Shown: one piece after another, positions 19,544 to 35,546 of the stretch
Layout: every line of letters starts with the position of its first letter
Numbering within the stretch: position 1 is the stretch's first letter
Source: Rhodospirillaceae bacterium
Lineage (GTDB): Bacteria; Pseudomonadota; Alphaproteobacteria; Rhodospirillales; Rhodospirillaceae
Direction of reading: 5' to 3'
Length of the DNA stretch: 45,476 nucleotides
NCBI GenBank assembly: GCA_009694245.1
Contig: SHVO01000006.1
Span: forward strand, 1-45,476
Program-made: the position numbers and the translations under genes
The notes under the pieces: generated by a model
Told to the model about the DNA's origin: nothing
Seen by the model: the letters and a program-made list of their open reading frames with translations, nothing else
Database searches by the model: none

Positions 19544-21562
19544 CTATTCCGCGCCCAGCGCGACCACCGGGTCAAGGTTGGCGGCCTTGCGGGCGGGCAA
19601 ATAACCGAACACCAGACCGGTGACGAAGGCGCAGGAGAAGGCGAGGAAAATCGGTCCCGGCGAAAATTGTACCGGCTTGCCGAAAGTGGAGAAAGCCCAT
19701 GCCGTGCCCATTCCGACGGCGACGCCGATCACGCCGCCAAGGGCGCAGACCACCAAGGCCTCGGTATTGAACTGCAACAGGATATTAAGCTTGCGCGCGC
19801 CGGTCGCCATGCGGATGCCGATCTCGCGGGTGCGCTCGGTCACGCTGACGAGCATGATGTTCATCACGCCGATGCCGCCGACGAGGAGTGAGATTGCGGC
19901 GATGGAGCCCAGCAGGATGGTTAGCGTATTTTGCGTCTCGGCGGCGGCCTCGATCACTGAAACCATGTTGCGGATCTGGAAGTCCTCATTCTTGTGCCGA
20001 GAAATCAGCAATTGGGTAATGGCGGCTTGCGTCGCGTCAATCTTGCCGACGTCGGCGACCGCCACCGTGATCGTGCGCGCATAACGCTGGCCGTAAATCC
20101 GCTGCGCGCCGGTGGTGATGGGCGTGAAAATCTGGTCGTCCATGTCGTTGCCGTTGTTATTGGCGCCCTTGGCCGCCATCACGCCGATCACTTGGAACGG
20201 ATTGTTGTTGACCAGGATGTACTTCCCGAGCGGATTCTCACCATTGGTAAATAGGGCTTTGACGACAGTCCTGCCGAGCACCACCACGGGCGCATAGTCC
20301 GCGACGTCGCCATTGGTGAAGAACGCACCTTCGGCCGCCGGCCAATCGCGCGCGCGCGTGTAGTCAGCCGTCGTGCCGTCGACTTGCGTCTGAGCGTCGT
20401 TCTTTCCGTAGCGAACGGTTACGTTCGTGGGGAATTCGGGCACGGCCTGATCGACGTTGGGCAATTCGGCGATGGCCTCGGCATCGGCCGGAACCAGCGA
20501 CGCGCGGAACCCGCCAACGAATCGTTGATTGGGCGCGCCGGGGCGAATCAGCAGAAGATCGGTGCCCATGGCCGAGATGCCGTCGAGCACTTTCTGCTTG
20601 GCGCCATTGCCGATAGCCAGCATCGCCACGACCGACGCCACGCCGATGATGATGCCAAGCAGCGTCAGCAGGGTGCGCATGACATTGTTCCTGAGCGAAC
20701 CAAGCGCCATCTTGCCGGCCTCGACGACGTCGGGAACGCTCGCGAAATTTGGCGCCGGACCCAGGCCCTCGGGCCGAATGATTGCCTTGAGCCGGGCCGC
20801 ATCGGGCTTCAGCGCGCCGGTGTCGGCGGTAATGCGGCCATCCTTGATCTCAACGACACGCTTGGCGCGCCGGGCGACCGCGGGGTCGTGCGTGATGATC
20901 AGAATGGTGTGGCCGGCCGCGTTGAGATCGGCCAACAGCCTCATAACTTCCTCGCCGCTCGTGCTGTCGAGAGCGCCGGTGGGTTCATCGGCAAGGATAA
21001 CCGCACCGCCGTTCATCAGCGCGCGGGCCACGGAAACGCGTTGTTGCTGTCCTCCCGACAGCTGGCTAGGCCGATGGTCGAGTCGATCGCCAAGTCCGAG
21101 GGCGGTCAACAGGGCCTCGGCCCGTTCGATGCGCTGGGCATGCGATAACCCGGCATAGATCGCGGGCACCTCGACGTTCTCGGTGGCCGAGGCGCCGGCA
21201 AGCAAGTTGTACTGTTGGAAAACAAATCCGAAGGCGCTGCGCCTGAGGAGCGCACGCTGATCAGCGTCCAGATCGGCGACCTCGCTGCCGGCAAACATGT
21301 AACTGCCCGATGTGGGCCGGTCCAGACAGCCGAGGAGATTCATAAGGGTTGTCTTGCCGGAGCCCGATGCGCCCATGATGGCGACGTATTCGCCGGGATA
21401 GATTTCGAGCGAGACACCGTTCAGCACCCGCAGGGCAACTTCGCCGCGGCTAAAGGTCTTGGTGATATCGCGTAACGCGATGATTGGCGCGACGCCGGTC
21501 GGCGGCAATTGGGTGCCGACAAGCGCTTGGGCCTCGCGCCAGGGATTGGTGAGGGCGGTCAT
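19544..21562 (-). CDS. macB: MacB-type ABC transporter, ATPase and permease
   Basis: The 672-residue protein has an N-terminal ABC domain with Walker [10 protein letters not shown] (64-72), signature [15 protein letters not shown] and Walker [14 protein letters not shown]. It is followed by a transmembrane helix, a large periplasmic domain and three C-terminal FtsX-type helices ([25 protein letters not shown]). This is the MacB mechanotransmission transporter, which uses ATP to drive export through the outer-membrane channel. Its start overlaps the macA stop by 4 nt (ATGA). Typical MacB length is 640-670 residues, so it is full-length. Confidence 0.95.
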
Positions 21563-22851
21563 AGGTGCGGACCGCCGGGCCGGCCGCGCTGGTTGCTACC
21601 GGGGGCCTGTGGGCCGTTACGCGGCTGTACGCCGCCGTCGAGCGCGATCTCCTCGCCCGCGTTGAGTCCGGATTTGACCTCCGCCACCATCCGGTTCATG
21701 ACGCCGACGACGATCTCGCGTGTGACCACATCGCCACTTTCGACCACATGGACGGCGTAGCGCAACGCAGATGAACCTTGCCCCTCGTCGGCCCCACCCC
21801 CCCGGCGATCGGCGCGCGGCCGCGCGGGCGCTTGACCGGCGCTCGCTGGATGAAGGGCGGTCACCGGAACCACCGTAACTTCGCGTGCGGTGGCAAGAAC
21901 GAAGAACACCTGGGCGCTCATCTGAGTCAGCAGATCACCGTCGGGGTTCTCGACATCGAACAGGCAGTTGTACAGAACGACGTTGTTGATAACGTCCGGT
22001 GTCGGAATGATTTTGCGCAATTTGCCGTAGCGGCGCTTCTCGGACGTGCCCAGCGTCGTGAAATAGGCTTCCATGCCAATTGTCAGCTTCGGGACGTCAG
22101 CTTCCGAGACCTGCGCCCAAACGGTCATGGTGTTGAGATTGGCGATGCGCAGCACGATCGGGGCCGTTTGGTTCGCGTTCAAGGTCTGGCCCTGCTTGGC
22201 TATCAGGTTGACGACGGTGCCATCCATGGGCGCGTAGATTTTGGTGTAGCCGAGATTGGCCATGTCGCCGTTGAGGGTTGACTGGGTCTGCTTGAGCTGA
22301 GCTTCGAGCTGCGCGATCTGCGCCACGGCGACCTTGAGATTTGAATTGGCGCTGTCAAAGGCGTCTTGGCTCGTGGCGTTTTCCTTCAGCAGTTCCTGCT
22401 GGCGCGCAAACTGAAGTTCAGCGAGCGATCTTTGCGCCTGGCGCTGCGCCAGCTGGGCGCCCAGGTTCAAGAGCTGCGCCTCGTCGGCGTTGACCCGCGA
22501 TTGATAAATCGTCGGATCGATCTCGGCCAGCAAATCACCCTTCTTGACGGTGGCGCTGTAATCGACGTGCAGAATTCTCAATTGCCCCGAGACCTGAGTG
22601 CCGACGTCGACAAATTGCAGGGGCTGAATTGTGCCGAGCGCCGTGACCGCATCCTCGACATTGCCGATGGCGACCCGTTGCGTGAGGGCCGTGGTCATGG
22701 GACCGCTCCCACCCAAAGACAGCCAGCCGCCCGCGGCAATGACCGCGACGATTACGGCCGCGAGACCGCCGATCAGCCAGCGCGGCCGGCGACCTCGGGC
22801 GAAACTCGAAAGGGCGGCCCTATGCAGCGGGATTTTAGTCGGTTCATACAT
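21559..22851 (-). CDS. macA: MacA-type periplasmic adaptor (HlyD/RND MFP family)
   Basis: The 430-residue membrane fusion protein has a cytoplasmic basic N-terminus, one transmembrane helix ([20 protein letters not shown]), the lipoyl domain ([11 protein letters not shown] and [16 protein letters not shown]), a long helical hairpin (about 105-190) and the beta-barrel domain. The C-terminal part has a Pro/Arg/Gly-rich insertion ([20 protein letters not shown]) and a tail ending [10 protein letters not shown]. It bridges MacB to the outer membrane factor. It is first in the operon, and the start codon ATG is at 22851. Confidence 0.93.
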
Positions 22852-23187: not shown

Positions 23188-23964
23188 GTGACAACCACAG
23201 ACAAGCGGAGATTTGTCCGACGCGCGGCGACCATTGCGGTTGCCGGGGGAGTCGCCCTCGCCGCACTGATTTGGCTGGCGGCGCGGCTCGGCGATTTTGG
23301 CGTACCGGCGACGGCTGTCGCGCTCGGACTTTATTTTGGCGCGAGCCTGATTTTCGTCGCGCGCATCGGTGACCATCACCCCTTTGCTCGCATTGGCGCC
23401 GCCAATGTCGTTACCCTGGCGCGCCTGGTTCTGACGTGCCTGTTCGCCGGCGTCGTCGTCCAGATCGCCGAGGACTCCCTCGGGCCAACGCCGGTCGCGG
23501 CCTGGGCCTTTTTTGTCGTGGCCTCGCTCGCCGCGGCCCTTGACGGCATCGATGGCCCGCTCGCACGACGTCAGGGGCTGGTCTCTGACTTTGGGTCACG
23601 TTTTGACATGGAGACCGACGCCTTGCTGATATTACTGCTTTCAGTCGCCGCGCTCGCGCTTGAGAAAGCCGGCGCTTGGGTGCTGGTTGGCGGCGCGCTG
23701 CGATACATATTCATTGTCGCCGGGTGGATTTGGCCCGCCTTGGCCCGTCCCCTGCCGCCGTCGCTGCGCCGCAAGGCGATATGCGTTTTTCAAAGCGCCG
23801 CGCTCGCGCTCCTGCTGACGCCGATCATTACGCCGCCTGTGAGCGGCTTGCTCGCATTTGCCGCCTTCATTCTCCTGGTCTATTCATTCGGCCAAGACGT
23901 CGTCGGGGCCTTCCGTGGTGCGGCGTCTCAAGCCTCTCAAGCGTTTCGGGCGTCTCACGGGTAA
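23188..23964 (+). CDS. CDP-alcohol phosphatidyltransferase family protein
   Basis: The 258-residue membrane enzyme carries a perfect CDP-alcohol phosphotransferase motif: D119-x2-D122-G-x2-A126-R127-x8-G136-x3-D140-x3-D144, in the segment LDGIDGPLARRQ...DMETD. Several hydrophobic helices flank it. The family transfers a phosphate-bearing alcohol from a CDP-alcohol to a lipid or other acceptor; the specific substrate is unknown. The start is a GTG at 23188 with AAGGGA 8 nt upstream. The sulfatase-like gene follows 11 nt downstream and then the creatininase, suggesting one operon. Confidence 0.88.
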   Translation: MTTTDKRRFVRRAATIAVAGGVALAALIWLAARLGDFGVPATAVALGLYFGASLIFVARIGDHHPFARIGAANVVTLARLVLTCLFAGVVVQIAEDSLGPTPVAAWAFFVVASLAAALDGIDGPLARRQGLVSDFGSRFDMETDALLILLLSVAALALEKAGAWVLVGGALRYIFIVAGWIWPALARPLPPSLRRKAICVFQSAALALLLTPIITPPVSGLLAFAAFILLVYSFGQDVVGAFRGAASQASQAFRASHG

Positions 23965-23975
23965 AAGTCGAAAAC

Positions 23976-25628
23976 ATGAACGGCAGAAGACTTGCAAGGC
24001 GTCCGGACCGCAGCCGCCTCCAGCACGGGCTGAGATGGATCGGCGCCCTCGCGCTATTGAACGCCGTGCTTATCCTGCCCGACCGGATCACCGAACTAAA
24101 TTTGTCCGCGCTGTCACGGCTGCCCGTGGAACTGCCGCTGATCGTGCTGACCATGGCCCTGCTCGCGGGCAGGGCCCGCGCCGTCTTGCGCGGCGCTATC
24201 GTGGCGGCTCTCGCCGCCATGCTGCTTCTCAAAATTGCCAATATGGCGGTGTATTTCGGATTCGATCGGCCATTCAATCCGCTGGTCGACGTATTGATGG
24301 TACCTACCGCCCTCGACACCCTCGGCAAGACCGGCGGCATGGGCGCCGCCGCCGCCGCGGTCTTGGTGGCGGTCTTGATCGTCGCCATGATCGTTGCCGT
24401 TCTCACCTGGTCCACGGGAGTCCTCGCTCAAGATGTTGCCCGCGAAGCCAGGCTCTCGCTGGCCGCGGGCGCCGCCCTGGTCGCGGCGCTCGGGTTTTCG
24501 CCCTACGCGACGACAGCGGCGACAGTGTTCGTCCGTGACCAGGCGGTCGCGACTTCACAAGGCCTTCGCGATGCCGCGCAGTTTCGGGCGCAGCTTCTTG
24601 AAGATCCTTTTGGCAAGCTTCCGCCTCTGAGCCGTCTCGCCAAACTCAAAGGCAACGACGTCTTGTTGATATTCGTCGAGTCCTACGGTCGCGCATCGCT
24701 CGACAATCCAGCCTATGCAGCGTTGTTGCGCGGCAACTTGCGGCGGTTCGGCGATGCCGTCAAGGCCGGTGGATTCAGCGCGCGTAGCGCCTGGATGACG
24801 TCGCCAACCTTTGGCGGCGAAAGCTATCTCGCGCACAGCACCGCCGTGTCGGGCTTGTGGGTCAATAATCAGCAGCGCTATGCGCAGTTGCTTCGCAGCC
24901 GCCGCCCGAGCCTGATCAGCGATTTCAACGGCGCTGGCTGGCGGACGGTCGCGGTCATGCCGGAGATCACCATGCCTTGGCCGGAGGCAGCCTATTTTGG
25001 TTATGGGAAAATCTATTCGGCACCGGAACTCGCCTATAAGGGCGAGTCGTTCGACTATTTAACGATGCCTGATCAGTACACGCTTGCGGTTTTCCACAAT
25101 TATGAGCTGGCGCCGATCGAGCGCGCGCCGGTCATGGCCGAGATCGCGATGATCTCCAGCCACATTCCCTGGGCGCCGATTCCGAAGCTCGTACCCTGGG
25201 CCGATGTTGGCGACGGCCGGATATTCACCACCGCGCGCACGCCCGAGACCGCCAATGAAATTTGGCGCGACGCCAAAAGGGTGGCAGAATATTACGCTCT
25301 GTCGGTGGATTATACGCTGCAAACCCTGATGTCGTTTGTCACGACGCACGGTCGCGACAATATGCTGCTGATCATCCTCGGCGACCACCAGCCGATGACG
25401 TTTATTGCCGGCGCTGGCGCCAATCACGAAGTGCCGGTTCATATCATCGCCCGCGACCCCGAACTCCTGGCGGCGCTCGACGAGGGGACGTGGACCGAGG
25501 GCATGGAGCCTGACAAGACCAGCCCGTCATGGCCCATGGACAGCTTGCGTGGCCGCATACTTGGCGCTTTCACGCCGGCGGCGGATGCGACATTGTCCCT
25601 GCAGCCAGGTCCCATACAGAAACCCTGA
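23976..25628 (+). CDS. membrane sulfatase/phosphoethanolamine- or phosphoglycerol-transferase-like protein
   Basis: The 550-residue protein has an N-terminal membrane part of about five helices (to about residue 200) and a C-terminal alkaline-phosphatase-superfamily domain. Motifs include FVESYGRASL (catalytic-site Glu235), the TFGGESYLAHST segment and GDHQP (D470, H471) in the metal site. The arrangement resembles LTA-synthase and phosphoethanolamine-transferase proteins that modify envelope glycans or lipids rather than soluble sulfatases. The ATG at 23976 has no clear Shine-Dalgarno and is 11 nt after the CDP-alcohol transferase stop. The two may make and transfer the same phosphoalcohol head group. 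Confidence 0.82.
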   Translation: MNGRRLARRPDRSRLQHGLRWIGALALLNAVLILPDRITELNLSALSRLPVELPLIVLTMALLAGRARAVLRGAIVAALAAMLLLKIANMAVYFGFDRPFNPLVDVLMVPTALDTLGKTGGMGAAAAAVLVAVLIVAMIVAVLTWSTGVLAQDVAREARLSLAAGAALVAALGFSPYATTAATVFVRDQAVATSQGLRDAAQFRAQLLEDPFGKLPPLSRLAKLKGNDVLLIFVESYGRASLDNPAYAALLRGNLRRFGDAVKAGGFSARSAWMTSPTFGGESYLAHSTAVSGLWVNNQQRYAQLLRSRRPSLISDFNGAGWRTVAVMPEITMPWPEAAYFGYGKIYSAPELAYKGESFDYLTMPDQYTLAVFHNYELAPIERAPVMAEIAMISSHIPWAPIPKLVPWADVGDGRIFTTARTPETANEIWRDAKRVAEYYALSVDYTLQTLMSFVTTHGRDNMLLIILGDHQPMTFIAGAGANHEVPVHIIARDPELLAALDEGTWTEGMEPDKTSPSWPMDSLRGRILGAFTPAADATLSLQPGPIQKP

Positions 25629-25648
25629 ACAGGCAGGAGTTCAACCCG

Positions 25649-26416
25649 GTGTTTATTCGGTTCGTTGAGCAGACACAGACGTCGACACAGCGTGAAGCGG
25701 CCGTGGCAATTGTCCCGCTGGCAGCGGTTGAGACCCATGGCCCGCACCTGCCGCTCGCCACCGATGGCCTGATCGTTGAAGGCATTCTTGACCAGGCGGG
25801 AAAGAATGACGGTTCCCCATCGGCCTATGTCCGGCTGCCGATGCTTTGGCTGGGCGCGTCAACCGAGCACGCCGACCGTCCAGGCACACTAAGCATCGAG
25901 CCCGAACAGCTGATCGGGCAGATTGTCGCGATTGCGGAGGGATTGTCGCGCTGCGGAATCCACCGCGTCGTGTTGTTCAACGGTCATGGCGGCAATGTCG
26001 CGGCGGCGGCGATCGCCGCGCTCAAACTCAGAACCCGCTTTGAAATGCTGGTGGCCAGCGCTCACTGGCTCGATTTCGGGTTGCCGGCGGGCCTGGTTCC
26101 GCCCGCGCCGCTCACCGGCGACGTCCACGGTGGTTGGGTCGAGACGGCCGCGATGCTGCATCTCGCGCCGCGGCTTGTGGTGAAGGGGGCGATGGCCGCG
26201 CGGCCCGCGACAGCGCCGGCGCCGAGTTTATTCCCCCAAGGCCCGATTGCTTGGGGCTGGAAACTCGACGATCTCGCAGCCGATCAGGGCGACGCAGGAG
26301 GTTGGATTGGTCGCGCCGATCTTGCGACGGCGGAACTGGGGAAATCCCTGGTTGACCACGCGGCGGCAGCGCTCTTGCGGCTTCTCCAAGAAATATCCAC
26401 CGCGCAGTGGCCGTGA
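25649..26416 (+). CDS. creatininase family amidohydrolase
   Basis: The 255-residue protein has all metal-ligand motifs of the creatininase fold: ETHGPHLPLATD (E28, H30, H33, D39), FNGHGGN (H113) and GDVHGGWVETAAM (H160, E165). The family includes creatinine amidohydrolase, mycofactocin MftE and the archaeal ArfB deformylase of riboflavin/F420 biosynthesis. The GTG at 25649 has AGGAG 10 nt upstream and follows the sulfatase gene by 20 nt. The neighbouring GTP cyclohydrolase and stand-alone RibD reductase make an ArfB-like role in pyrimidine or pterin chemistry the most interesting option, but sequence alone does not prove the substrate. Confidence 0.87.
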   Translation: MFIRFVEQTQTSTQREAAVAIVPLAAVETHGPHLPLATDGLIVEGILDQAGKNDGSPSAYVRLPMLWLGASTEHADRPGTLSIEPEQLIGQIVAIAEGLSRCGIHRVVLFNGHGGNVAAAAIAALKLRTRFEMLVASAHWLDFGLPAGLVPPAPLTGDVHGGWVETAAMLHLAPRLVVKGAMAARPATAPAPSLFPQGPIAWGWKLDDLAADQGDAGGWIGRADLATAELGKSLVDHAAAALLRLLQEISTAQWP

Positions 26417-26733
26417 AAGTAGCGCAGAGCCTTTTAGGCCCAGCGGCCTGCTTCGGCTAAGACGCGTAGGGCGGGATGATTCTAGCTCTGATCATCAGAA
26501 AGGTTGTCATCCTCGACCAACCGAGCCGCAAGGCGAGGCGTAGATCGGATATCCATCGTACAAAGAGTCGCCCGACCAGCGTATTTAGCACGGGTGGACC
26601 CCCACTTTCCCTTGGTGGGGCGCCAGTTTCAGTAGGGTCGCTTCGCTCGCCAACAGAAACTAGGCGCGCCGGGGTGACAATGGTGAAGAAGCGGCCGCGT
26701 CGTCTCGACACACGCGAGCGTTTCAATGTCAAA
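26417..26733. other. intergenic region between creatininase and ribA
   Basis: No gene is supported. A minus-strand frame of 133 codons (26457-26858) overlaps the ribA 3' end and reads as low-complexity repeat-like peptide (VSVGERSDPTETGAPP), not as a family member. The DNA contains a short stem (CCCCAC and GTGGGG around 26611-26631). The segment could be a dispersed repeat. Confidence 0.45.
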
Positions 26734-27864
26734 TCAGCCCGCTCGTGTGATTTCGTCCAACATGTGGCCGGCCCGGCGGGCCTTGGTTCTGAGATAGTTG
26801 TGGTTGTGGGGATTGACGGCGCCGAGGATGCGCTGATGACCCACCACATTGACCCCAAAATCCTCCAGCGCCGTGATCTTGCCGGGATTGTTGGTCATCA
26901 GCGTTATCTTGCGGAACCCTAAAAGCGCCAGCATGGCGCCGGCAACCGCGTAGCGCCGCTCATCGGGGCCATAGCCGAGGACGGCGTCGGCATCCATGGT
27001 ATCGTGGCCCAATTCCTGCAGGCCATATGCACGCATCTTATTGAGCAGTCCGATACCACGGCCTTCTTGGTCGAGGTACAGCAGCACGCCGCTGCCGGCG
27101 GTCGCGATCTCACCGACGGCGAGGCGTAGCTGGTCGCCGCAATCGCACTTGAGGCTGGCAAACAAATCTCCCGTCAGGCAGGCCGAGTGCAGCCGCGTCA
27201 AAACCGGCTGCCTCGGATTGGGCTCGCCAATGACGATGGCGATCTGATCGTGCAATCCGTCGCCACCACGGAAGATGACGAACTCGGCGCTGGCGGCTTC
27301 GCTGAGCGGTACGCGTGTCCGCGCGGCAATCGTCAGGTCGCGCGCGGACTGTTCATGGAAGTCCGCGACAGCCGCGGCGTGGACTTCTGCCAGGGCGGTC
27401 TTTTCGCCGGCCTCGCCCGGAAGCACCAGCGCCGCCGGCAGGAGATAGGCCCGCTTTACCAACTCGAGCGCCAAAACCTCCAGCGACAGGGCGGGCCGAT
27501 GCTCGATGGCCGGCACGTCGGGCTCGACCGCCAGCAGGATATCGTCGATCTCGCAGGCGAGGAGACCTGCGAGGGACACATACGAAGGTACCGACGTCGT
27601 GATACCCAGGTGGGCAAGCCGCGGTGCCGGCAAAATCAGGCCGGGGGTGCCAGCGGTAGCTTGATGCCAGGCGGCGATACGCTCGCCCGCAAGCATTTCG
27701 GCGGCGGCCACCATGAGACTCTCGCCGTTGGACCCGGTGAGTTTTACCGGACGGCCGGCGCGCAGCTCGCTGACGGCACGCTGCACCGTCAGGCGGCCCA
27801 GGTTCCCGAACCACCTTGCCAAGTCCCCATCGACGGTACCAATCTTCACATCCTCGTTGGGCAC
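26734..27864 (-). CDS. ribA: GTP cyclohydrolase II with degenerate N-terminal extension
   Basis: The C-terminal half of this 376-residue protein is GTP cyclohydrolase II, which opens GTP to 2,5-diamino-6-ribosylamino-4(3H)-pyrimidinone 5'-phosphate, formate and pyrophosphate. The zinc cysteines are C229, C240 and C242 (HSACLTGD and KCDCGDQ). LDQEGRGIGLLNKMRAY (264-280) is the nucleotide-binding block, and Y280 matches the catalytic tyrosine of the E. coli enzyme. The usual HSECLTGD reads HSACLTGD here. The N-terminal ~190 residues (VQRAVSELRAGRPVKLTG and on) look like the non-catalytic extension of alphaproteobacterial RibA proteins. The gene is divergent from the RibD-like gene across only 27 nt. 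Confidence 0.92.
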   Translation of the reverse strand: MPNEDVKIGTVDGDLARWFGNLGRLTVQRAVSELRAGRPVKLTGSNGESLMVAAAEMLAGERIAAWHQATAGTPGLILPAPRLAHLGITTSVPSYVSLAGLLACEIDDILLAVEPDVPAIEHRPALSLEVLALELVKRAYLLPAALVLPGEAGEKTALAEVHAAAVADFHEQSARDLTIAARTRVPLSEAASAEFVIFRGGDGLHDQIAIVIGEPNPRQPVLTRLHSACLTGDLFASLKCDCGDQLRLAVGEIATAGSGVLLYLDQEGRGIGLLNKMRAYGLQELGHDTMDADAVLGYGPDERRYAVAGAMLALLGFRKITLMTNNPGKITALEDFGVNVVGHQRILGAVNPHNHNYLRTKARRAGHMLDEITRAG

Positions 27865-27891
27865 GGCTAACCTTTACGCAAAGAATCTGTC

Positions 27892-28683
27892 ATGAAGGCC
27901 ATTGTGGACTGGGACCGGGACACTCCGCAATGGTCGGCGGTGCTTGCCGCCGCCAATGCTGGCGGCGGCCGGGACGAGGATTTCGCCGAAAATGCCTTAT
28001 GGGCCCTCTATGCGCCGCTGATTCAGACGCCGCGCGATCAAAGTTACGTGATCGGCCAGATCGGACAGTCGCTCGACGGACGCATCGCCACAGCTTCCGG
28101 CCATTCTCACTTCATAAATGGCGCCGCCGCCATTGTTCATCTGCATCGCTTGCGGGCTCTGGTTGATGCCGTTGTGGTGGGGGTCGGAACGGTTATCGCC
28201 GACGATCCCCAGCTGACCGTGCGCGAGGCACGAACCAGGCCGGGCCGAGCGCAACCGGCTCGGGTGGTCCTGGATCCGGCGGGGCGTATCCCGGCCCGGG
28301 CCAAATGTCTTTGTGACGACGGCGCGCGGCGAATCCTCGTGCAAGGGGCCGGCCGGCCGCGCCCGCATGGCGTGGAATACCTGGAGATACCGGAATCCCT
28401 AGGCGCCATGGCCCCCGCGGCCATTCTCTCGGTGTTGGGCAAGGTAGGACTTCACCATATACTTGTGGAAGGGGGCGCCAATACCTTGTCGCGATTCGTC
28501 GCGGCCGACTGTTTGCATCGGCTTCACATTCTGACGGCGCCCTTGATCATTGGCTCCGGCCCGTCGGGGATACAGTTGGCGCCGATCGACCGTCTTGAAG
28601 ACGCCCGACGTCCGCTAGTGACGGCTTTCGCGCTGCCGGGCGGTGATGTCTTGTTCGACTGTATCTTCTCCACTGCACCCTAG
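27892..28683 (+). CDS. RibD reductase-domain protein without deaminase domain
   Basis: The 263-residue protein is the dihydrofolate-reductase-like C-terminal domain of RibD. It has the NADPH/substrate segments GQSLDGRIATASG (58-70), VVGVGTVIADDPQLTVR (95-111) and ILVEGGANTLSRF near the end. The zinc-binding cytidine-deaminase domain that normally precedes it is absent; the first 45 residues show no deaminase motif. Stand-alone reductases of this type act before deamination in archaea and fungi. Cytochrome b561 starts 9 nt downstream, so the two form an operon. The pathway role is inferred from neighbours. Confidence 0.88.
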   Translation: MKAIVDWDRDTPQWSAVLAAANAGGGRDEDFAENALWALYAPLIQTPRDQSYVIGQIGQSLDGRIATASGHSHFINGAAAIVHLHRLRALVDAVVVGVGTVIADDPQLTVREARTRPGRAQPARVVLDPAGRIPARAKCLCDDGARRILVQGAGRPRPHGVEYLEIPESLGAMAPAAILSVLGKVGLHHILVEGGANTLSRFVAADCLHRLHILTAPLIIGSGPSGIQLAPIDRLEDARRPLVTAFALPGGDVLFDCIFSTAP

Positions 28684-28692
28684 GTCCGATCG

Positions 28693-29232
28693 ATGACCGA
28701 AAAATTCCTTCACTACCGCGCTCCGGCCCAAATCCTCCATTGGCTGACGGCGCTGGTAGTCGTCTGCGGCGTGACGTTCGGTGTTGGCATGCTCAACGCC
28801 TCGCCGGGCGCCCTGCAAAACCGGCTGTTTGATCTGCACCGTTCCTGCGGCGCCCTGATTCTGGCACTCACCGGCCTCAGGCTCTTGTGGCGTCTCTATA
28901 CGCCCCCGCCGCCGTTAATCGCCGGAATGCCCGCGTGGCAGGAGCGCGCCGCCCGCATCACCCATGCCGCACTCTATATATTGCTGTTCACCGTCCCGTT
29001 GGTGGGTTGGGCCGGGACCTCGGCATTCGGCGCGCCCATCCCGGTCTTCGGCCTCTTCGAGCTGCCGATGATTCTCGAAAAGGACAAGGCGGTGGCGGAC
29101 GTGCTTTTGCCGCTTCACGGCGGACTGGCGTTGACGCTCTGCGCGCTCTTGCTGCTTCACATCGGCGCGGCGCTACACCATCATTTCATCCGCAAGGACA
29201 ATACCTTGCGGCGCATGCTGCCAGAACTTTAG
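28693..29232 (+). CDS. cytochrome b561 family protein
   Basis: The 179-residue protein has four transmembrane helices and the histidine pattern of bacterial cytochrome b561 (CybB-like): H16 in ILHWLTA, H49 in DLHRSCG, a histidine in LPLHGGLAL and another in LLHIGAALHHHF. It should bind two b hemes and shuttle electrons across the inner membrane, for instance between quinol and superoxide or a periplasmic partner. It follows the RibD-like reductase by 9 nt. Its stop overlaps the stop of the convergent methyltransferase gene by 4 nt. Confidence 0.88.
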   Translation: MTEKFLHYRAPAQILHWLTALVVVCGVTFGVGMLNASPGALQNRLFDLHRSCGALILALTGLRLLWRLYTPPPPLIAGMPAWQERAARITHAALYILLFTVPLVGWAGTSAFGAPIPVFGLFELPMILEKDKAVADVLLPLHGGLALTLCALLLLHIGAALHHHFIRKDNTLRRMLPEL

Positions 29233-30059
29233 AGGATCCGTGCGAAGACGTCGCGGTGGCCAACGATCAGCTGTTTGGTGTTTTCACGTTGATGTTCCAG
29301 CCAGGCGGCCAGTTCATCGCCAGCGACGCCGATTTCAGCCGCCGCCGCCGCCATTCCTTCGACGGTCGCCTGCAATAGTTCCGAGGGCTCCAACACCCAG
29401 GGGCTTTCGCCGGCGGTGAGGGCGTAGCCGGCCGCTTCGAGGGTTTGCTCCAGGAACCGTCCGGCGTCGGCCCCCGCCGAAGGGCCGAAGCCCTTGTCGC
29501 GGGACTGATGTTGGCGAAAAGCGGCCGCGACTTTCTTGTCGAGGGGGTGGGGCGGGCTTGCGGCGATCTTTTCATCGGCGGTCAGCGTCGCCAGCAGCGG
29601 CCGTCGGCCCGCGGCCAGCGCTGCAACCAAACGCTTGATCCAGGCCGCCGACGTCAGATCGAACAACGCCGACGCCGTCACAAGATCGGAATCCATGGGC
29701 CAGCACGCGGGGTCTCTGGCCAAGTCGAGAACCTCGGTGCGGACCTCGATCCGGCGCAGGCCGTGATGCAGCGTTAGTCCGGCGTCATGACGCAAAGCTT
29801 TGTCCGCCCAAGCCTCAAGCGCGGTCAGTGCGCCCGCGAGGTTCTCCGGATCGCGATCGACTAGGGTCCACTGTTGTTCGCCCGGCAGCAGGTCGGCGAA
29901 AGCCCGCAGCGCCGCGCCGGTGCCGGCGCCCAAATCGCAAACCTTCAGGCTCGAGCGGGCGGCAAAAGTGAGCGCGCAGCGCGCTATAACATCGCGATTG
30001 CGCGCGGCCCTGTCGGCGGGCTCACGCAGGGCCAGCCAAGCCGGCGAAAAACCGCTCAT
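29229..30059 (-). CDS. class I SAM-dependent methyltransferase
   Basis: The 276-residue protein has the SAM-binding motif I LKVCDLGAGTGAALRAF, the acidic motif II end WTLVDRDPENL, and a motif IV-like DSDLVTASALFDLTS. The N-terminus FSPAWLALREPADRAARN and the C-terminal IVGHRDVFARI are characteristic of this cluster-associated type, as far as I can tell. The substrate is unknown; given the neighbours a pyrimidine, pterin or sugar intermediate is possible. The start overlaps the stop of the GT4 gene by 4 nt. Confidence 0.83.
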   Translation of the reverse strand: MSGFSPAWLALREPADRAARNRDVIARCALTFAARSSLKVCDLGAGTGAALRAFADLLPGEQQWTLVDRDPENLAGALTALEAWADKALRHDAGLTLHHGLRRIEVRTEVLDLARDPACWPMDSDLVTASALFDLTSAAWIKRLVAALAAGRRPLLATLTADEKIAASPPHPLDKKVAAAFRQHQSRDKGFGPSAGADAGRFLEQTLEAAGYALTAGESPWVLEPSELLQATVEGMAAAAAEIGVAGDELAAWLEHQRENTKQLIVGHRDVFARIL

Positions 30060-31108
30060 TGCGAACTCCTTATAAGTGCCTGGCCAACCTGCGCCGCGGT
30101 ATCGCTCCAGGTCGGCAGTCCGCGGCCATGATCCCAGGCGGCATCGCTGAGTTGCTTACGATAGATCGGGTCGGTGAGTAGGCGCCGCAAAGCCTCGGAG
30201 AGGGCGGCGGGATTGTCCACCGGCACTAGCACGCTGGCAGCCGCGGGCACGGTCTCGGTCACCGCGCCGGCGGCACAGGCAACGATGGGTAGGCCGCGCG
30301 CCAGGGCCTCGGCGAAAACCATGCCGTAGCCCTCGTGGCGAGAGGGTAGGACAAAGATGTCGCTGCCGGCATAGGCCGCGTCCAGAGCCGAATCCTGCAA
30401 CTCGCCTAACAGTCTCACACGTGCCTCCAGTCCACTGGCCTTGATGAGCGCGCGAACGTTAGCGGTGATCCGCGGATCGCGGTCAAGACTGCCGACAAGA
30501 TCGCACGACCAGGCGAGATCAGCCAGCCGCGCCAACGCCGCGATCAGGACATCGTGGGCCTTGCGATGGGTCAGTGTGGCGACCGTCAGAAGTTTCGCAG
30601 TTGGGCCGCTGCCCCGGGCGCGGGCGGCTTGATCGGTGCCGGGCGGCGCCAGGCAGAGCTTTCCGCGCGCAACGCCGTATTCGCGCACCAGCGTCTCTCG
30701 TGTATGGCGGCTGGTAACCACAACGGCCCGGGCGGCGGCGAGTGCCGCGCGTTCGCAATCCTTGAATTGCTCGACTTCGGATTCACTCAGGCCGGTTTCT
30801 GCGGCCAGGGGATGGTGAACCAGCGCGACAAATCCGAGGTCGAAGTCCGCCAGCATCTCGCGCGGCAGCGCGCTGAAAGCCAGGCCGTCCACCAGGACGA
30901 TAGCGCCCGCCGGCACCGCCGACAGAATTGAGCGCGTGGCCGAAAGCGTGCTCGCTGAGGGCTTAGGGAACTCTGCGGGCAGCCGAAGATGACGGGGGAT
31001 CCAGCCCGCGGATGGCAGGGCGGCTATTAGCCGGCGCGCGTAGGCATATCCACCCGTCAGCGCCGCCAAGTCGCCGGGTATGGCAAACCAGACGTCAGGC
31101 ACCGACAA
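30056..31108 (-). CDS. glycosyltransferase family 4 protein
   Basis: The 350-residue protein shows a two-domain GT-B fold with a GT4 signature. VATLTHRKAHDVLI begins the C-terminal domain, YAGSDIFVLPSRHEGYGMVFAEALARGLPIVAC holds the E-x7-E nucleotide-sugar motif (E in HEGYG and E in AEALA), and GAVTETVPA follows. It transfers a sugar from a nucleotide sugar to an unknown acceptor. It overlaps the PTPS-like gene by 14 nt and the methyltransferase by 4 nt, so these three are coupled in one operon. Confidence 0.88.
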   Translation of the reverse strand: MSVPDVWFAIPGDLAALTGGYAYARRLIAALPSAGWIPRHLRLPAEFPKPSASTLSATRSILSAVPAGAIVLVDGLAFSALPREMLADFDLGFVALVHHPLAAETGLSESEVEQFKDCERAALAAARAVVVTSRHTRETLVREYGVARGKLCLAPPGTDQAARARGSGPTAKLLTVATLTHRKAHDVLIAALARLADLAWSCDLVGSLDRDPRITANVRALIKASGLEARVRLLGELQDSALDAAYAGSDIFVLPSRHEGYGMVFAEALARGLPIVACAAGAVTETVPAAASVLVPVDNPAALSEALRRLLTDPIYRKQLSDAAWDHGRGLPTWSDTAAQVGQALIRSSQ

Positions 31109-31502
31109 GGTCCGCTTCGTAGGAGGCCAGCGCGGTGTGGGACTCGTGAAGCGTGATCTTCAGGCGCGCCAGGCCGCGGGCGGCGGGGCCGAGCTTTCCG
31201 GCGGCAATGGCGGCTTGGAGCTTGTCGAAGACCCAGCGGGCGACGACTTCGGTGGTCGAGCGCCGGCCGAGAAATTCCGGATGTTCGTCGAGGTTGCTAA
31301 AATTGATGGCCGCCAGAACTTCTTTAACCGTGTCGGTGGCAAGGCCGATGTCGACCACGATATCGTTCTCGTCCAGTTCCCGGCGCATGAAGCACACATC
31401 GATGACATAGGTTGCGCCGTGCAGTCTCTGGGCGGGGCCAAAGACCTCACCCTTGATGCTGTGGGCGATCATGACGTGGTCGCGGACTTCTACGGCGTAC
31501 AT
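31095..31502 (-). CDS. 6-pyruvoyltetrahydropterin synthase/QueD-like protein with altered metal motif
   Basis: The 135-residue T-fold protein has the PTPS/QueD layout: H14 (MIAHS), H28 in RLHGATYVIDV, the DIGLATDTVKEVL block, NLDEHPEF (H74) and the late glutamate in LHESHTA (E120). Canonical family members have HGH, giving three zinc histidines, plus a nearby catalytic cysteine. Here the second histidine of HGH is Ala (A30) and no cysteine precedes it. The zinc site or reaction is probably different from PTPS and QueD. The position in an operon with the MDR dehydrogenase and a glycosyltransferase supports a specialised pterin-like function. Confidence 0.8.
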   Translation of the reverse strand: MYAVEVRDHVMIAHSIKGEVFGPAQRLHGATYVIDVCFMRRELDENDIVVDIGLATDTVKEVLAAINFSNLDEHPEFLGRRSTTEVVARWVFDKLQAAIAAGKLGPAARGLARLKITLHESHTALASYEADLVGA

Positions 31503-31526
31503 GGCAGTGTGATTCCTCGTTGAACG

Positions 31527-32498
31527 TTAGCTGTAACGCAGGACCGTCATCAGCCCGGCGCTGTTGTCGGCAAGTATCTTGGGTAGTTCAAGCGCGGCCT
31601 CGGCAAAAGCGATCTCACCGGTGACAAGGGCGTCAAAGCGGTCGTCGCACAACAGCTCTAGTGCCTTGCTCATGCGGCGCGCGTTTGTCCACCGCGCGCG
31701 CCGGTCGGCAGGAACGACCCCCACCTGCGAGGAAATAAGCTGCAGGCGGCGCGCGTGAAAAGCCTCGCCGAGCGGAACCGAGATCTTCTTGTCGCCGTAC
31801 CAGCTCGCCTCGACCACCCGCGCCTCGGTTCCGGCGGCGGCCAGCGCGAGCCTCAGGCCTTCGGCCGTGCCGCTGGTGTGGATGACAATGTCATAATTTT
31901 CGGGCGTCATGGCTGGCGATGCGAAGCTGACGCCAAGTCTTTTAGCAATAGTCTCACGCGCGGGATCGATATCGGTGACGGTGACCTGCGCTCCGGGCAG
32001 GCGCGTAACGATCCCGGATATCAAAAGTCCGAGTACGCCGCCGCCGACAATGAGAATCCGGTCTCCCGGCGAGACTCTCGCATCCCAACAGACATTGAGC
32101 GCGGTTTCCATATTGGCCGCCAGGGCGGCACGGCGCGGCGGCAATCCAGCCGGCAAGGCGTGGACGGCGGAAAGGGGGACGCACATCCGCGTTTGATGAG
32201 GATGCAGGAGGAAAACGTGCTCGCCAATGCGCGCCTTTGGTCCATCCTCGATCTGGCCGACGAGTGCGTAACCGTATTTCACCGGAAACGGGAACTCCCC
32301 GTCCTGGTGTGGACAACGCATGCGCTGATATTCCGAGGCCGGCACACGACCCGTGAGCACCAGCCGTTCAGTGCCGCGGCTTATGCCGGAGAACCGTGCC
32401 GCTACACGGACATCTCCCGCCGCGGTTTCCGGCAGGTCCACGGGGCGGATCTCGGTCACCCCATCGGCCACGTACCACAGGGCTTCGCTACGCAGCAT
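31527..32498 (-). CDS. MDR-family dehydrogenase, zinc ligands not evident
   Basis: The 323-residue protein has the alcohol-dehydrogenase-like N-terminal GroES-like domain (SGISRGTERLVL, VKYGYALVGQI) and the NAD(P)-binding Rossmann motif ILIVGGGVLGLLISG with the acidic end VTVTDIDP. The Cys/His zinc ligands of zinc ADHs are not recognisable. The pattern SGISRGTE is shared with BchC-type and related MDR reductases. It heads the minus-strand operon, with the PTPS-like gene 24 nt downstream. The start is at 32498. Confidence 0.8.
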   Translation of the reverse strand: MLRSEALWYVADGVTEIRPVDLPETAAGDVRVAARFSGISRGTERLVLTGRVPASEYQRMRCPHQDGEFPFPVKYGYALVGQIEDGPKARIGEHVFLLHPHQTRMCVPLSAVHALPAGLPPRRAALAANMETALNVCWDARVSPGDRILIVGGGVLGLLISGIVTRLPGAQVTVTDIDPARETIAKRLGVSFASPAMTPENYDIVIHTSGTAEGLRLALAAAGTEARVVEASWYGDKKISVPLGEAFHARRLQLISSQVGVVPADRRARWTNARRMSKALELLCDDRFDALVTGEIAFAEAALELPKILADNSAGLMTVLRYS

Positions 32499-32753: not shown

Positions 32754-35291
32754 TTATTTTTCCACGAAGATATGGTCGGGCGATAGGCCCGCCTGCGAGC
32801 GCTCATACATCCGTGTGTAAGCCGATTCTATGTGCCGGGCGTAGAGCGCGGCATTGAACAACGGAGCGGTCAGCCGGTTCCGCGCGAGCTTCCGGCGAGT
32901 GTCTTCCATCTCATCGGGGTTGGTAGCCAGCGCGACGGCCCGGTCTTCGTAGGCTTTGGCATCGAAGGTGATGAGTTCTGGCAGGTCGAGCGCCGTCAGT
33001 ATGCCCGCGGCCACCCGCCCGGCGAAGGACTCGCCGGCACAGGTCAGGATTGGCAACCCGGCCCAGAGCGTGTCGCTAGCGGTCGTGTGAGCATTATAAG
33101 GCAGTGTGTCGAGAAATAGATCCGCAACGCGTTGGCGCGCCAAATTGTCGCTAAAGGGCGTGCGTGGCGCGAAAACCAAGCGCCGCTCGTCGACCCCCTG
33201 ACGCTTCGCCTCCCTGCGGAGATTCGCTGCCGCCAAGGAATTATCCTCCAGCAACCACAGCACGCTGCCCTCGACCCGATTGAGGATGCGCATCCAGCCC
33301 GCGAAAGTTCCGGGCGAGATCTTGATATTGATGTTGAAGCAACAGAAAACAAAGCCCGAGCCGATTGGCGGCAGACCGAGCTCCTCGCGGGTAAAGATTT
33401 TGTCGGCGATCTTTCGTGTGGCGTCGTTGGGCTGATAGCTATGAGGCATATAGACGATCTTCTCGGCGTAGTGGTGCCGCCCGTCTTCAGGGATAATCAT
33501 GTGGTCGGCGACAATATAGTCGTAATAGTCCGCGCCCATGGTGCCGGGATAGCCAAGATAATTGACCTGAATTGGGGCGGCGCCGATGGCGAATATGCCG
33601 GTGCGGGGCTGTCCCGTGTATCCCGCGAGATCGACGGCGATATCAATCTCCATCCGCCGCGCCATCTCGGCTATTTCCATATCCGAAGCGCTGCGGACAT
33701 CGACAAAGGTGTCAACCGCGGCTTCCATCCGCTTGCGCAAGGCGTCCTCGGAAGCCGGGCCATAGGAGAACGCGATGACCTCAAATTTCTCCCGGTCGTG
33801 AGCCTCGATGACGCCGGCAGTCAGCTGCGATACCGGGTGGTTGTGGAAATCCATCGAGAAGTAGCCAAGCTTGATCTTGGCTGATCGGGAACGGCGCGGG
33901 AGCGCGCCCAGAATTGAATTGCGCGGAGATTGATCCCGCATCCAAATTTCCGCCCCCTCACGCAACAGTCCGGGAGAGCTGATGAGGGTGAGCAATGAAA
34001 AAGGCGGCGATGCCAACTCACCACGCTCAAGCCTTCTCAACAGTTCATCGATCTCAGAGTCAAAGCCCGTCCATTCGCAGATGTTCAGTTTGGTATAGAG
34101 CCGTATTCCGTAAAGAAATGGGTAGCTCGGGTTCAATTGAAGCGCCGTGCTGTAGCTGGAAATGGCGGCGTCGAATCGCTTCATCTCATTCAGCGCACTG
34201 CCGCGGTTATTGTAGGCCTCAGCCGAGTCGGCCTTAATGTCGATCGCCTTGTCGAAAGCCTCGAGCGCGAGTTCGAGCTGTTTCAAATCCTGAAACGCCA
34301 CGCCCATGTTGTTGTAGGCCTCGGAATATGCAGGCTTTAGCTGAATGGCCTGATCGTAGCTTGCTAAGGACTCTTCATGGCACCCGAGCTCGCTCAACAC
34401 CACGCCGCGATTGTTGTGGGCCTCGGCATAACCGGGCCTGAGGGCGATGGCCCGGTCGTAATCGTCGATGGCGGCCTGGAATTTCTTCAGCGCCCGGAAA
34501 TTGGTTCCGCGGCTGTAGTAAGCCTCGGCGTAGCCGGTCTTGAGCGCGATGGCTTTGTCGTAATCGTCGCCGGCCGCGCCGTACCGCTTTTGGTCGCGGC
34601 AGACATGGCCACGGTTATGGTACGCCTCGGCGTAGTCCGGTTTGAGCGCGATCGCCTTGTCGAGGTTCAAAATCGCGGCCTCGAAATACTTGAGGTCGCG
34701 GAGCGCATTGCCGCGATTATTGTAGGCCTCGGCATAATCCGGCTTAAGCGTGATCGCATTCTCGAAACTCGCGATGGCGGCGTCGAGGTGCTTGAGGTCG
34801 CGGAGTGCGTTGCCGCGATTATTATGAGCCTCGGCGAAATCCGGTTTCAATTGTATGGCGCGATCGAAGCTGTCGACGGCCTCCCGGTGGCGCCTCAAGG
34901 CCCACAACGCATTCCCGCGGTTATTGTAGGGGTCAGCATTGTTGGGTTCGAGCCCAATCGCCTTATCGAAGCTGGCGATGGCCTCTTGGTGCCGGCCCAA
35001 ATCTCCCAAGGCATTGCCGCGGTTGTAATGCGCCGCTGCATTGTTCGGATCGACGTCGAGGGCCCGGCCGATCAGCGCGACGGCCTGGTCGATGTGGCCA
35101 GTCTGAGCGGCGATGATTCCAGCCAGGTGGAGGGCATCGAAGTGCCGGGGCTGCAGGGCGATCACCTGTTGGTAAATCGCCCAGGCCTCGCCCAGCCGAC
35201 CGTTTTGATGGTGAGCCCAGCCCTCAAGGAATTTGGCTTGGATTTGCGCGGCGGTCGCCAGCTGACCAGGGCCGTGGGTTTCAGGCGTCAT
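32754..35291 (-). CDS. TPR-containing O-GlcNAc-transferase/SPINDLY-like protein
   Basis: The 845-residue protein has 11 consecutive 34-residue TPRs (about residues 15-390) and a C-terminal GT41 catalytic region. The catalytic part shows IKLGYFSMDFHNHPVSQL, VDLAGYTGQPRTGIFAIGAAPIQVNYLGYPGTMG and LFLDTLPYNAHTTASDTLWAGLPILT, the UDP-sugar-binding segment. This is the OGT/SPINDLY family, which glycosylates Ser/Thr (O-GlcNAc or O-fucose); bacterial targets include flagellin. Start 35291 is chosen by alignment with the paralogue at 37851; 35351 is an alternative in-frame ATG. TPRs 5 and 6 are nearly identical at DNA level. Confidence 0.9.
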   Translation of the reverse strand: MTPETHGPGQLATAAQIQAKFLEGWAHHQNGRLGEAWAIYQQVIALQPRHFDALHLAGIIAAQTGHIDQAVALIGRALDVDPNNAAAHYNRGNALGDLGRHQEAIASFDKAIGLEPNNADPYNNRGNALWALRRHREAVDSFDRAIQLKPDFAEAHNNRGNALRDLKHLDAAIASFENAITLKPDYAEAYNNRGNALRDLKYFEAAILNLDKAIALKPDYAEAYHNRGHVCRDQKRYGAAGDDYDKAIALKTGYAEAYYSRGTNFRALKKFQAAIDDYDRAIALRPGYAEAHNNRGVVLSELGCHEESLASYDQAIQLKPAYSEAYNNMGVAFQDLKQLELALEAFDKAIDIKADSAEAYNNRGSALNEMKRFDAAISSYSTALQLNPSYPFLYGIRLYTKLNICEWTGFDSEIDELLRRLERGELASPPFSLLTLISSPGLLREGAEIWMRDQSPRNSILGALPRRSRSAKIKLGYFSMDFHNHPVSQLTAGVIEAHDREKFEVIAFSYGPASEDALRKRMEAAVDTFVDVRSASDMEIAEMARRMEIDIAVDLAGYTGQPRTGIFAIGAAPIQVNYLGYPGTMGADYYDYIVADHMIIPEDGRHHYAEKIVYMPHSYQPNDATRKIADKIFTREELGLPPIGSGFVFCCFNINIKISPGTFAGWMRILNRVEGSVLWLLEDNSLAAANLRREAKRQGVDERRLVFAPRTPFSDNLARQRVADLFLDTLPYNAHTTASDTLWAGLPILTCAGESFAGRVAAGILTALDLPELITFDAKAYEDRAVALATNPDEMEDTRRKLARNRLTAPLFNAALYARHIESAYTRMYERSQAGLSPDHIFVEK
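34690..34844. repeat. near-identical 102-bp TPR-coding tandem repeats
   Basis: A 53-nt segment at 34690-34742 recurs at 34792-34844 with about seven differences, a period of 102 nt, exactly three times 34 codons. It lies in the OGT TPR array and encodes repeats with NNRGNALRDLK. This points to recent duplication or gene conversion within the array. Confidence 0.75.
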
Positions 35292-35546
35292 CGGCAAGTA
35301 TCTATCATCCAGTCGTTCGGGTTGGCGATCGCACGAGGCCGGGCCGTCCATCGATGGCGTTCCCGCTGCGATGATTCGGACCCCTGGTTTGGCTCATTTT
35401 CCGTAGCGGGGTCAAGGCGATCAAGTCGCCGGAGTTCCTTGCCTGTAAGTGATGCGGCCGCGCCTCGTCCACGCCATCACCCCGGGTGCGGCATGCCATA
35501 TGATATCGACTCGGCGTGTCGGCGGATTTTTCGGGGAGCGAGGCGG

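Follow-up and report, generated by a model that had tools for sequence, protein, structure and literature searches.

The locus considered here lies on a contig of 45,476 nucleotides from a Rhodospirillaceae bacterium (SHVO01000006.1, our contig C38; the whole stretch is called the window), part of a genome bin of 1.64 Mb that is 76.5% complete. Between positions 23188 and 32498 we find ten genes (Table 1), taken from the list of open reading frames and assigned to families with Pfam and NCBIfam, among them genes for a PTPS-like protein of the group PTPS-IV, a GTP cyclohydrolase II (RibA) and a stand-alone RibD-type reductase (RibDc). The cluster is real and widely conserved, and was earlier partly noticed as PTPS-IV in company with PF00925 and RibD_C. 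A preliminary description made from the letters alone had announced eleven genes, one more than its own list and than the window contains; the tight or overlapping spacing and the families that it named were borne out, with the matches of the sulfatase-fold, methyltransferase and MDR proteins lying below cut-off. RibA and RibDc are divergent, their called starts 27 bp apart, the methyltransferase and GT4 genes overlap by 4 bp and the GT4 and PTPS genes by 14 bp (called starts, some of them uncertain), and 24 bp separate the PTPS and MDR genes.

Table 1. Genes of the PTPS-IV cluster in the window.
Gene product	Positions	Strand	Family match	Remarks
CDP-alcohol phosphatidyltransferase family (CDPtr), 258 aa	23188..23964	+	PF01066, E=8e-17	
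Membrane sulfatase-fold protein (Sulf)	23976..25628	+	PF00884, 19.7 bits, below cut-off	Start is the first ATG after CDPtr
Creatininase-family amidohydrolase	25649..26416	+	PF02633, E=2e-53	Start codon uncertain, frame opens at 25529
RibA, GTP cyclohydrolase II	26734..27864	-	PF00925, E=1e-49, residues 183-343	About 180 aa precede the domain
Stand-alone RibD-type reductase (RibDc)	27892..28683	+	PF01872 (RibD_C) alone	No deaminase domain
Cytochrome b561	28693..29232	+	PF01292, E=3e-30	Accessory
S-adenosylmethionine methyltransferase	29229..30059	-	Weak Pfam matches, below cut-off	Core
GT4 glycosyltransferase	30056..31108	-	PF00534, E=1e-28	Core
PTPS-IV (FGPAQ) T-fold protein	31095..31502	-	PF01242, E=9e-23	Core
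MDR dehydrogenase, BchC-like	31527..32498	-	TIGR01202 (bchC), 57.6 bits, below cut-off	Core

The PTPS-like protein matches PF01242 and carries the FGPAQ signature as F21-G22-P23-A24-Q25, each residue at least 90% conserved in the profile A1 described below, within a motif H14..FGPAQ..LHGA; we therefore place it in PTPS-IV. Enzymes of the PTPS and QueD type work with a zinc-binding His triad, a catalytic Cys and an Asp-His pair. In an alignment with PDB homologues the window protein has LHGA for HGH, no Cys, and NF or NY for the Asp-His pair, so that the term PTPS-like holds for the fold family and not for the catalytic residues. Haloarchaeal and Chloroflexi relatives are without FGPAQ, keep HSH and have no Cys. 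The best PDB match of the profile is 3d7j (SCO6650 of S. coelicolor, named 'uncharacterized', E=1e-58), while other PTPS and QueD entries match only at 2e-9 to 7e-4; SCO6650 is said to lack both zinc and triad and to have no PTPS activity. QueD was not found in the 76.5% complete bin, where the PTPS-IV gene is the sole PF01242 gene found.

The FGPAQ motif is given as the signature of PTPS-IV within COG0720 in the part of the AGeNNT paper that deals with this group (PMC5445326), where node 62, a PTPS-IV node with 561 sequences, has PF00925 and PF01872 as neighbours, as in the window. That section calls PF00925 'GTP cyclohydrolase I/FolE2', whereas its Pfam name is GTP_cyclohydro2; it gives no pathway, and the MDR, GT4, methyltransferase, CDPtr, GTP cyclohydrolase III and fusion discussed below are not named there. 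The cluster had been put forward as undescribed. A literature search that missed most subscription papers found no paper describing it in full and no function for PTPS-IV, although the PTPS-IV neighbourhood with PF00925 and RibD_C was in print in 2017 in that paper.

Conservation of the gene neighbourhood

By searching for RibDc in 150 genomes of the window's order we found a close relative (E <= 1.1e-35) in 16, the window's included; the remaining genomes give at most RibD-like matches of 1.4e-27 and weaker, which leaves a clean gap. Eleven of the 15 other genomes also carry the MDR, PTPS, GT4 and methyltransferase genes, and two further loci, on short contigs, have methyltransferase and creatininase genes. 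Among named relatives, of which the best 80 of 160 were taken, the window genes recur in alphaproteobacteria (Chelatococcus and an Alsobacter metagenome-assembled genome, MAG), gammaproteobacteria (Hydrocarboniphaga, a Granulosicoccus MAG) and actinobacteria (Brevibacterium, Agilicoccus, a Yaniella MAG) and, more diverged, in one Anaerolineae (Chloroflexi) MAG.

To lessen circularity, profile A1 was built from the PTPS-like protein alone and used at a threshold of E <= 1e-20; its sequences had first been found via RibDc loci, and the loci obtained are thus chosen by PTPS sequence, yet not wholly blind. PTPS-IV was matched in 27 of the 398 phylum genomes and 36 of the 289 class genomes searched (taken as Pseudomonadota and Alphaproteobacteria, the window genome counted in each). 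For each of the 58 other genomes with a match, the gene neighbourhood was scored with family hidden Markov models. An MDR gene was present at 57 loci, GT4 at 55, the methyltransferase at 52, RibDc at 47, CDPtr at 24 and RibA at 22, one of these RibA calls (L235) being a weak 50-bit match in a riboflavin-type region. Less frequent were an MdoH-like glycosyltransferase (19 loci, partial matches included), cytochrome b561 (14), creatininase and PF03706 (11 each) and the sulfatase-fold protein (nine). MDR, PTPS, GT4 and methyltransferase genes are collinear on one strand at 50 of the 58. As a control we scored 36 other RibD loci from the search for named relatives, those of 60 that exceed 15 kb, and MDR, PTPS, GT4, methyltransferase and CDPtr were found at none of them; these loci come mostly from other phyla and were selected on RibD, so that the control speaks to specificity and is not a matched rate.

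The preliminary description was to fall if the genes were never adjacent in related genomes, and they are adjacent in related and unrelated genomes alike. That the core of the PTPS-IV cluster is one functional unit whose members act together is well supported; cytochrome b561 and creatininase are accessory. The PTPS-IV gene is often plasmid-borne, with 21 plasmid records. A search of phage records gave two weak matches, and a Rhodococcus plasmid with a distant MDR relative has no cluster there.

Entry from GTP

GTP cyclohydrolase II is marked by three zinc-binding Cys residues and by Tyr105 and Arg128 (E. coli numbering), all of which are kept in the window RibA when aligned. Seven catalytic positions are intact in the window protein and at 25 loci; 24 of the 25 further cluster RibA proteins (the E. 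coli reference uncounted) are intact including the Tyr, and that of S. fungicidicus has Met. SCO6655 is reportedly a GTP cyclohydrolase II in which a Tyr-to-Met change halts the reaction at the formylated product, and S. fungicidicus, the only cluster RibA of that type, also has a creatininase at its locus. We considered the creatininase as a deformylase paired with Met-type RibA, which fits S. fungicidicus and the creatininase genes at the H. sinaiiensis and H. marismortui loci. The pairing fails to explain the window, because a Tyr-type RibA occurs there together with a creatininase, and we rejected it. The putative metal residues of the creatininase (E35, H37, D46, H120 and E172, numbered from 25628) are invariant in 26 rows.

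RibDc consists of RibD_C without a deaminase domain, a make-up that fits a 2,5-diamino-6-ribosylamino-pyrimidinone 5'-phosphate reductase, the substrate being predicted only. Its family profile scores 167 bits with 6p8c, named by its depositors 2,5-diamino-6-ribosylamino-4(3H)-pyrimidinone 5'-phosphate reductase, 143 bits with 2azn, which we take to be an archaeal reductase, and at most 137 bits with RibD chains. RibA and RibDc share one reading frame at seven Brevibacterium-type and Chloroflexi (Anaerolineae MAG) loci (455-502 aa, one called at 630).

Haloarchaeal plasmids hold the core too. Three Haloarcula loci share one arrangement, in which a Gfo/Idh oxidoreductase gene is followed by those for CDP-alcohol transferase, GTP cyclohydrolase III (annotated 'IIa'), MDR, PTPS and methyltransferase. 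GTP cyclohydrolase III is unrelated to RibA and opens the same GTP ring. We confirmed PF05165 in both proteins tested (E=3e-81), and a search with one such protein found the enzyme at four of ten haloarchaeal loci examined and at no bacterial locus; neither RibA nor RibDc gave a match in the fetched flanks of the ten. Since in archaea reduction precedes deamination, haloarchaea would need no dedicated RibDc. GTP cyclohydrolase III in the place of RibA is the strongest argument for GTP as the substrate and for a non-deaminated pyrimidine intermediate, and entry from GTP is well supported. At least two RibA copies occur in 51 of the 59 PTPS-IV genomes against 14 of 54 genomes without PTPS-IV (counted by eye), which lends weak support; the 54 are of one class and many are small (12 of 21 among those of 2.5 Mb or more), and degenerate RibBA halves were counted.

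In Natrarchaeobaculum a GTP cyclohydrolase III gene (L257:8216-9990) overlaps MDR and is followed, at the place of PTPS, by a 183-aa protein without Pfam match (L257:9991-10539).

A proposed pathway and its envelope modules

Co-occurrence at the 49 loci whose flanks are complete was scored by Fisher test. No locus has both CDPtr and the MdoH-like glycosyltransferase (21 and 14 alone, 14 with neither, p=7e-5), the PF03706 gene occurs only alongside CDPtr (10 of 10, p=4e-5), b561 tends to accompany MdoH (nine with both, four and five alone, p=4e-4) and RibA occurs only with RibDc (20 with both, none with RibA alone, p=0.015, uncorrected); these p-values overstate the case because the genomes share ancestry and some 28 gene pairs entered the test, and therefore only the first three associations would survive a simple correction. 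There is thus a near-constant core (MDR, PTPS-IV, GT4, methyltransferase and mostly RibDc) joined to two alternative envelope modules. PF03706 is the transmembrane region of LPG synthase, flippase-like, and the MdoH-like protein is of the glycosyltransferase-2 type.

An MdoH/OpgH-like gene lies beside or just upstream of the core at L058, L056, L039, L044 and a Neorhizobium locus (L256:9098-11011), and genes of this kind are often near one for a protein without Pfam match (our family f15). On a Palleronia plasmid an inositol monophosphatase-family gene (PF00459, L255:8171-8971) lies within the cluster and may provide a dephosphorylation step.

The residues of the remaining enzymes bear on what they may do. 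Zinc-dependent MDR proteins carry Cys and GHE where the window protein has SGISRGTE and YGY, which replace the usual ligands of the catalytic zinc. The best match of GT4 is EpsE (89.3 bits), and it shows MshA-like similarity (74.5 bits), both below cut-off. CDP-alcohol phosphotransferases share the motif D-x2-DG-x2-AR-x8-G-x3-D-x3-D, which is complete in CDPtr (D119, D122, G123, R127, G136, D140 and D144, invariant in 34 rows); the PDB profiles nearest to it, those of choline/ethanolamine phosphotransferases and of phosphatidylserine synthase, do not single out an acceptor. Sulfatases use a Cys or Ser converted to formylglycine within C-x-P-x-R. Sulf, a sulfatase in the preliminary description, has the Ser of GGxSW in place of that motif and scores below the Pfam cut-off; E241, S289 (GGxSW), H402, D476 and H477 (numbered from 23958) are invariant in 17 rows and presumably resemble the pattern of LtaS. 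A sequence search returned no PDB relative of Sulf. Judged by these residues, it is probably a phospho-group transferase of the LtaS/OpgB/EptA type and not a sulfatase.

On balance we favour a reading of the PTPS-IV cluster as one dedicated unit that would turn GTP into a glycosylated, methylated, pterin-like product, lipid-linked in lineages such as the window's. RibA would open GTP to give 2,5-diamino-6-(5-phosphoribosylamino)-4(3H)-pyrimidinone, a step that is well supported, and RibDc, as homology and the fusion support, would yield the ribitylamino compound; with no deaminase in the cluster, the 2-amino group would stay in place. The zinc-free MDR may then oxidise a side-chain hydroxyl, and the T-fold protein PTPS-IV may bind the 2-amino-4-oxo-pyrimidine and help to close or remodel the ring to a pterin type, which GT4 and the methyltransferase would decorate. 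In lineages like the window's CDPtr might join a phosphorylated polyol head to a phospholipid, with the sulfatase-fold phosphotransferase (elsewhere also the flippase-like PF03706 protein) acting on the outer face and cytochrome b561 as an optional redox partner. From the MDR oxidation onwards these steps are our inference from enzyme type; a pterin-type, glycosylated and methylated product is probable, and a lipid-linked form where CDPtr is present, the window included, is possible. The assembly of phosphatidylinositol and of phosphatidylinositol mannosides (PIM) likewise relies on a CDP-alcohol transferase and a GT4 enzyme, the same pair as here; the cluster core differs in having no inositol gene, and here a ribityl-pyrimidine or pterin would serve as acceptor. 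The earlier proposal of a methylated, glycosylated, lipid-linked molecule with a membrane redox partner thus stands as to a single unit with methylation, glycosylation and envelope genes, and is weakened as to the partner, b561 being only accessory.

Several observations weigh against this reading. RibDc is missing at 11 of the 58 loci. A contig end truncates three of these, and in only two of the 11 genomes (G165 and G571) does a cluster-type copy occur elsewhere; RibA is missing at 36, and the S. fungicidicus locus has RibA without RibDc. Two Streptomyces plasmids (L133 and L252) carry a solitary PTPS-IV gene with no other core gene in the fetched flanks. In the window's order, one RibDc locus (L042) is without any other cluster gene within about 10 kb and another (L040) has only creatininase and RibA. 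The RibDc profile scores hardly less with bacterial RibD (137 bits) than with 2azn (143 bits). GTP cyclohydrolase III is lacking around six of the ten haloarchaeal loci, one haloarchaeal locus has GTP cyclohydrolase III and MDR without PTPS, and the three Haloarcula loci, being near relatives, may go back to a single evolutionary event. Lipid attachment would not be universal, since CDPtr is at 24 of 58 loci only and, at the 49 full loci, never with the MdoH-like gene. The order in which MDR, PTPS-IV, GT4 and methyltransferase would act, and the ring closure itself, are guesses from the type of enzyme.

A possible alternative, which we consider clearly less likely, keeps the same GTP pathway and ends in a soluble glycosylated, methylated pterin or pyrimidine (a cofactor, antioxidant or pigment), with CDPtr, the flippase-like protein and the sulfatase-fold protein forming a separate lipid or glycan module that is sometimes co-located. 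It would account for the patchy occurrence of CDPtr, Sulf and PF03706 beside a near-universal MDR/PTPS/GT4/methyltransferase set, and for the 14 of 49 full loci that have neither CDPtr nor MdoH. In Haloarcula, however, CDPtr belongs to one run of genes with GTP cyclohydrolase III and MDR, and in the Brevibacterium-type loci, a second, distant lineage that ties it to the core, it lies a short way upstream of the RibA-RibDc fusion.

Extending the favoured, lipid-linked reading, we suggest more speculatively, and with rather more doubt than belief, that a common pathway leads in bacteria and haloarchaea to a new class of polar lipid. Its head, a pterin or ribityl-aminopyrimidine that is glycosylated and methylated and derives from GTP through RibA or, in some archaea, GTP cyclohydrolase III, would be carried on a CDP-alcohol-derived phospholipid and would work at the membrane, for example as a lipid-bound redox cofactor with b561. 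If so, RibA, the reductase, MDR and PTPS-IV would form a second route to the pterin ring, independent of GTP cyclohydrolase I, in which 1'-reduction and 2'-oxidation amount to an Amadori step; a GTP-derived membrane molecule would have been missed even in Methylosinus trichosporium OB3b and Haloarcula marismortui, and many '6-carboxytetrahydropterin synthase' annotations would be wrong. The archaeal variant with GTP cyclohydrolase III makes the feedstock directly testable.

Relation to riboflavin and F420 synthesis

RibA and RibD_C are riboflavin families, and a paralogous supply line for riboflavin, lumazine or F420 would explain their presence; we regard it as improbable. Riboflavin synthesis requires a deaminase, and a riboflavin-type RibD deaminase is at none of the 58 loci, with RibE/RibB at one; the window cluster has no RibD deaminase, RibE or RibB, RibH not having been searched. 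The preliminary description had listed the deaminase, RibE and RibH as absent, which is right for the first two. Its GTP-derived pyrimidine, pterin or flavin-like product agrees with our results as to GTP; a flavin is unlikely because the deaminase is absent.

Elsewhere in the same genome, contig C19 holds RibD with its deaminase, RibE and a RibBA-type protein, found by eye and by profile matches. The GTP cyclohydrolase II half of the RibBA-type protein (L049:5845-6978) is by eye without the zinc Cys motif, and contig C6 has a separate RibA with CLTGD...CDCG intact; riboflavin synthesis therefore probably uses the C6 enzyme. That the locus merely makes up for a ribA missing from the riboflavin operon, which the preliminary description had named as a refutation, is rejected by this second intact RibA, and we regard the locus as dedicated because a riboflavin operon and a further intact ribA lie elsewhere in the genome. 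The archaeal entry to riboflavin, through GTP cyclohydrolase III, the creatininase-family deformylase ArfB and a 2,5-diamino reductase, employs similar kinds of enzyme, and GTP cyclohydrolase III itself is present at the four haloarchaeal loci. The bacterial loci differ from it in the absence of a RibD-type deaminase and, at all but one, of RibE, and the window creatininase is distant from ArfB (22.5 bits against a cut-off of 180).

As for F420, a passage of PMC5041015 mentions PTPS-IV in its synthesis as unpublished work, without settling whether the same FGPAQ group is meant. CofH scores above cut-off in just seven of the 59 PTPS-IV genomes, and we reject F420 synthesis as the general function; CofH was not found in the window genome, a 76.5% complete bin. 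One genome (G760) has a CofH gene at about 11.9 kb on the contig (C10) that holds its PTPS-IV cluster at about 2.1 kb, some 9 kb apart.

That two or three unrelated operons are neighbours by chance, as the three transcription blocks of the window and the accessory genes that differ among lineages might suggest, is very improbable given recurrence in Alpha- and Gammaproteobacteria, Actinomycetota, a Chloroflexi MAG and haloarchaea and the RibA-RibDc fusion, and is ruled out for the core by its collinear recurrence among the 58 loci, chance remaining possible for creatininase and b561.

On either side of the cluster the window contains further genes whose relatives adjoin it elsewhere, all assigned by eye. 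Long TPR and SPINDLY/O-GlcNAc-transferase-like proteins are encoded at 32754-35351 and from 37851, with relatives adjoining the cluster at L052-L054. A MacB-type ABC transporter and an HlyD-like adaptor precede it at 19544-22851, with relatives at L054.

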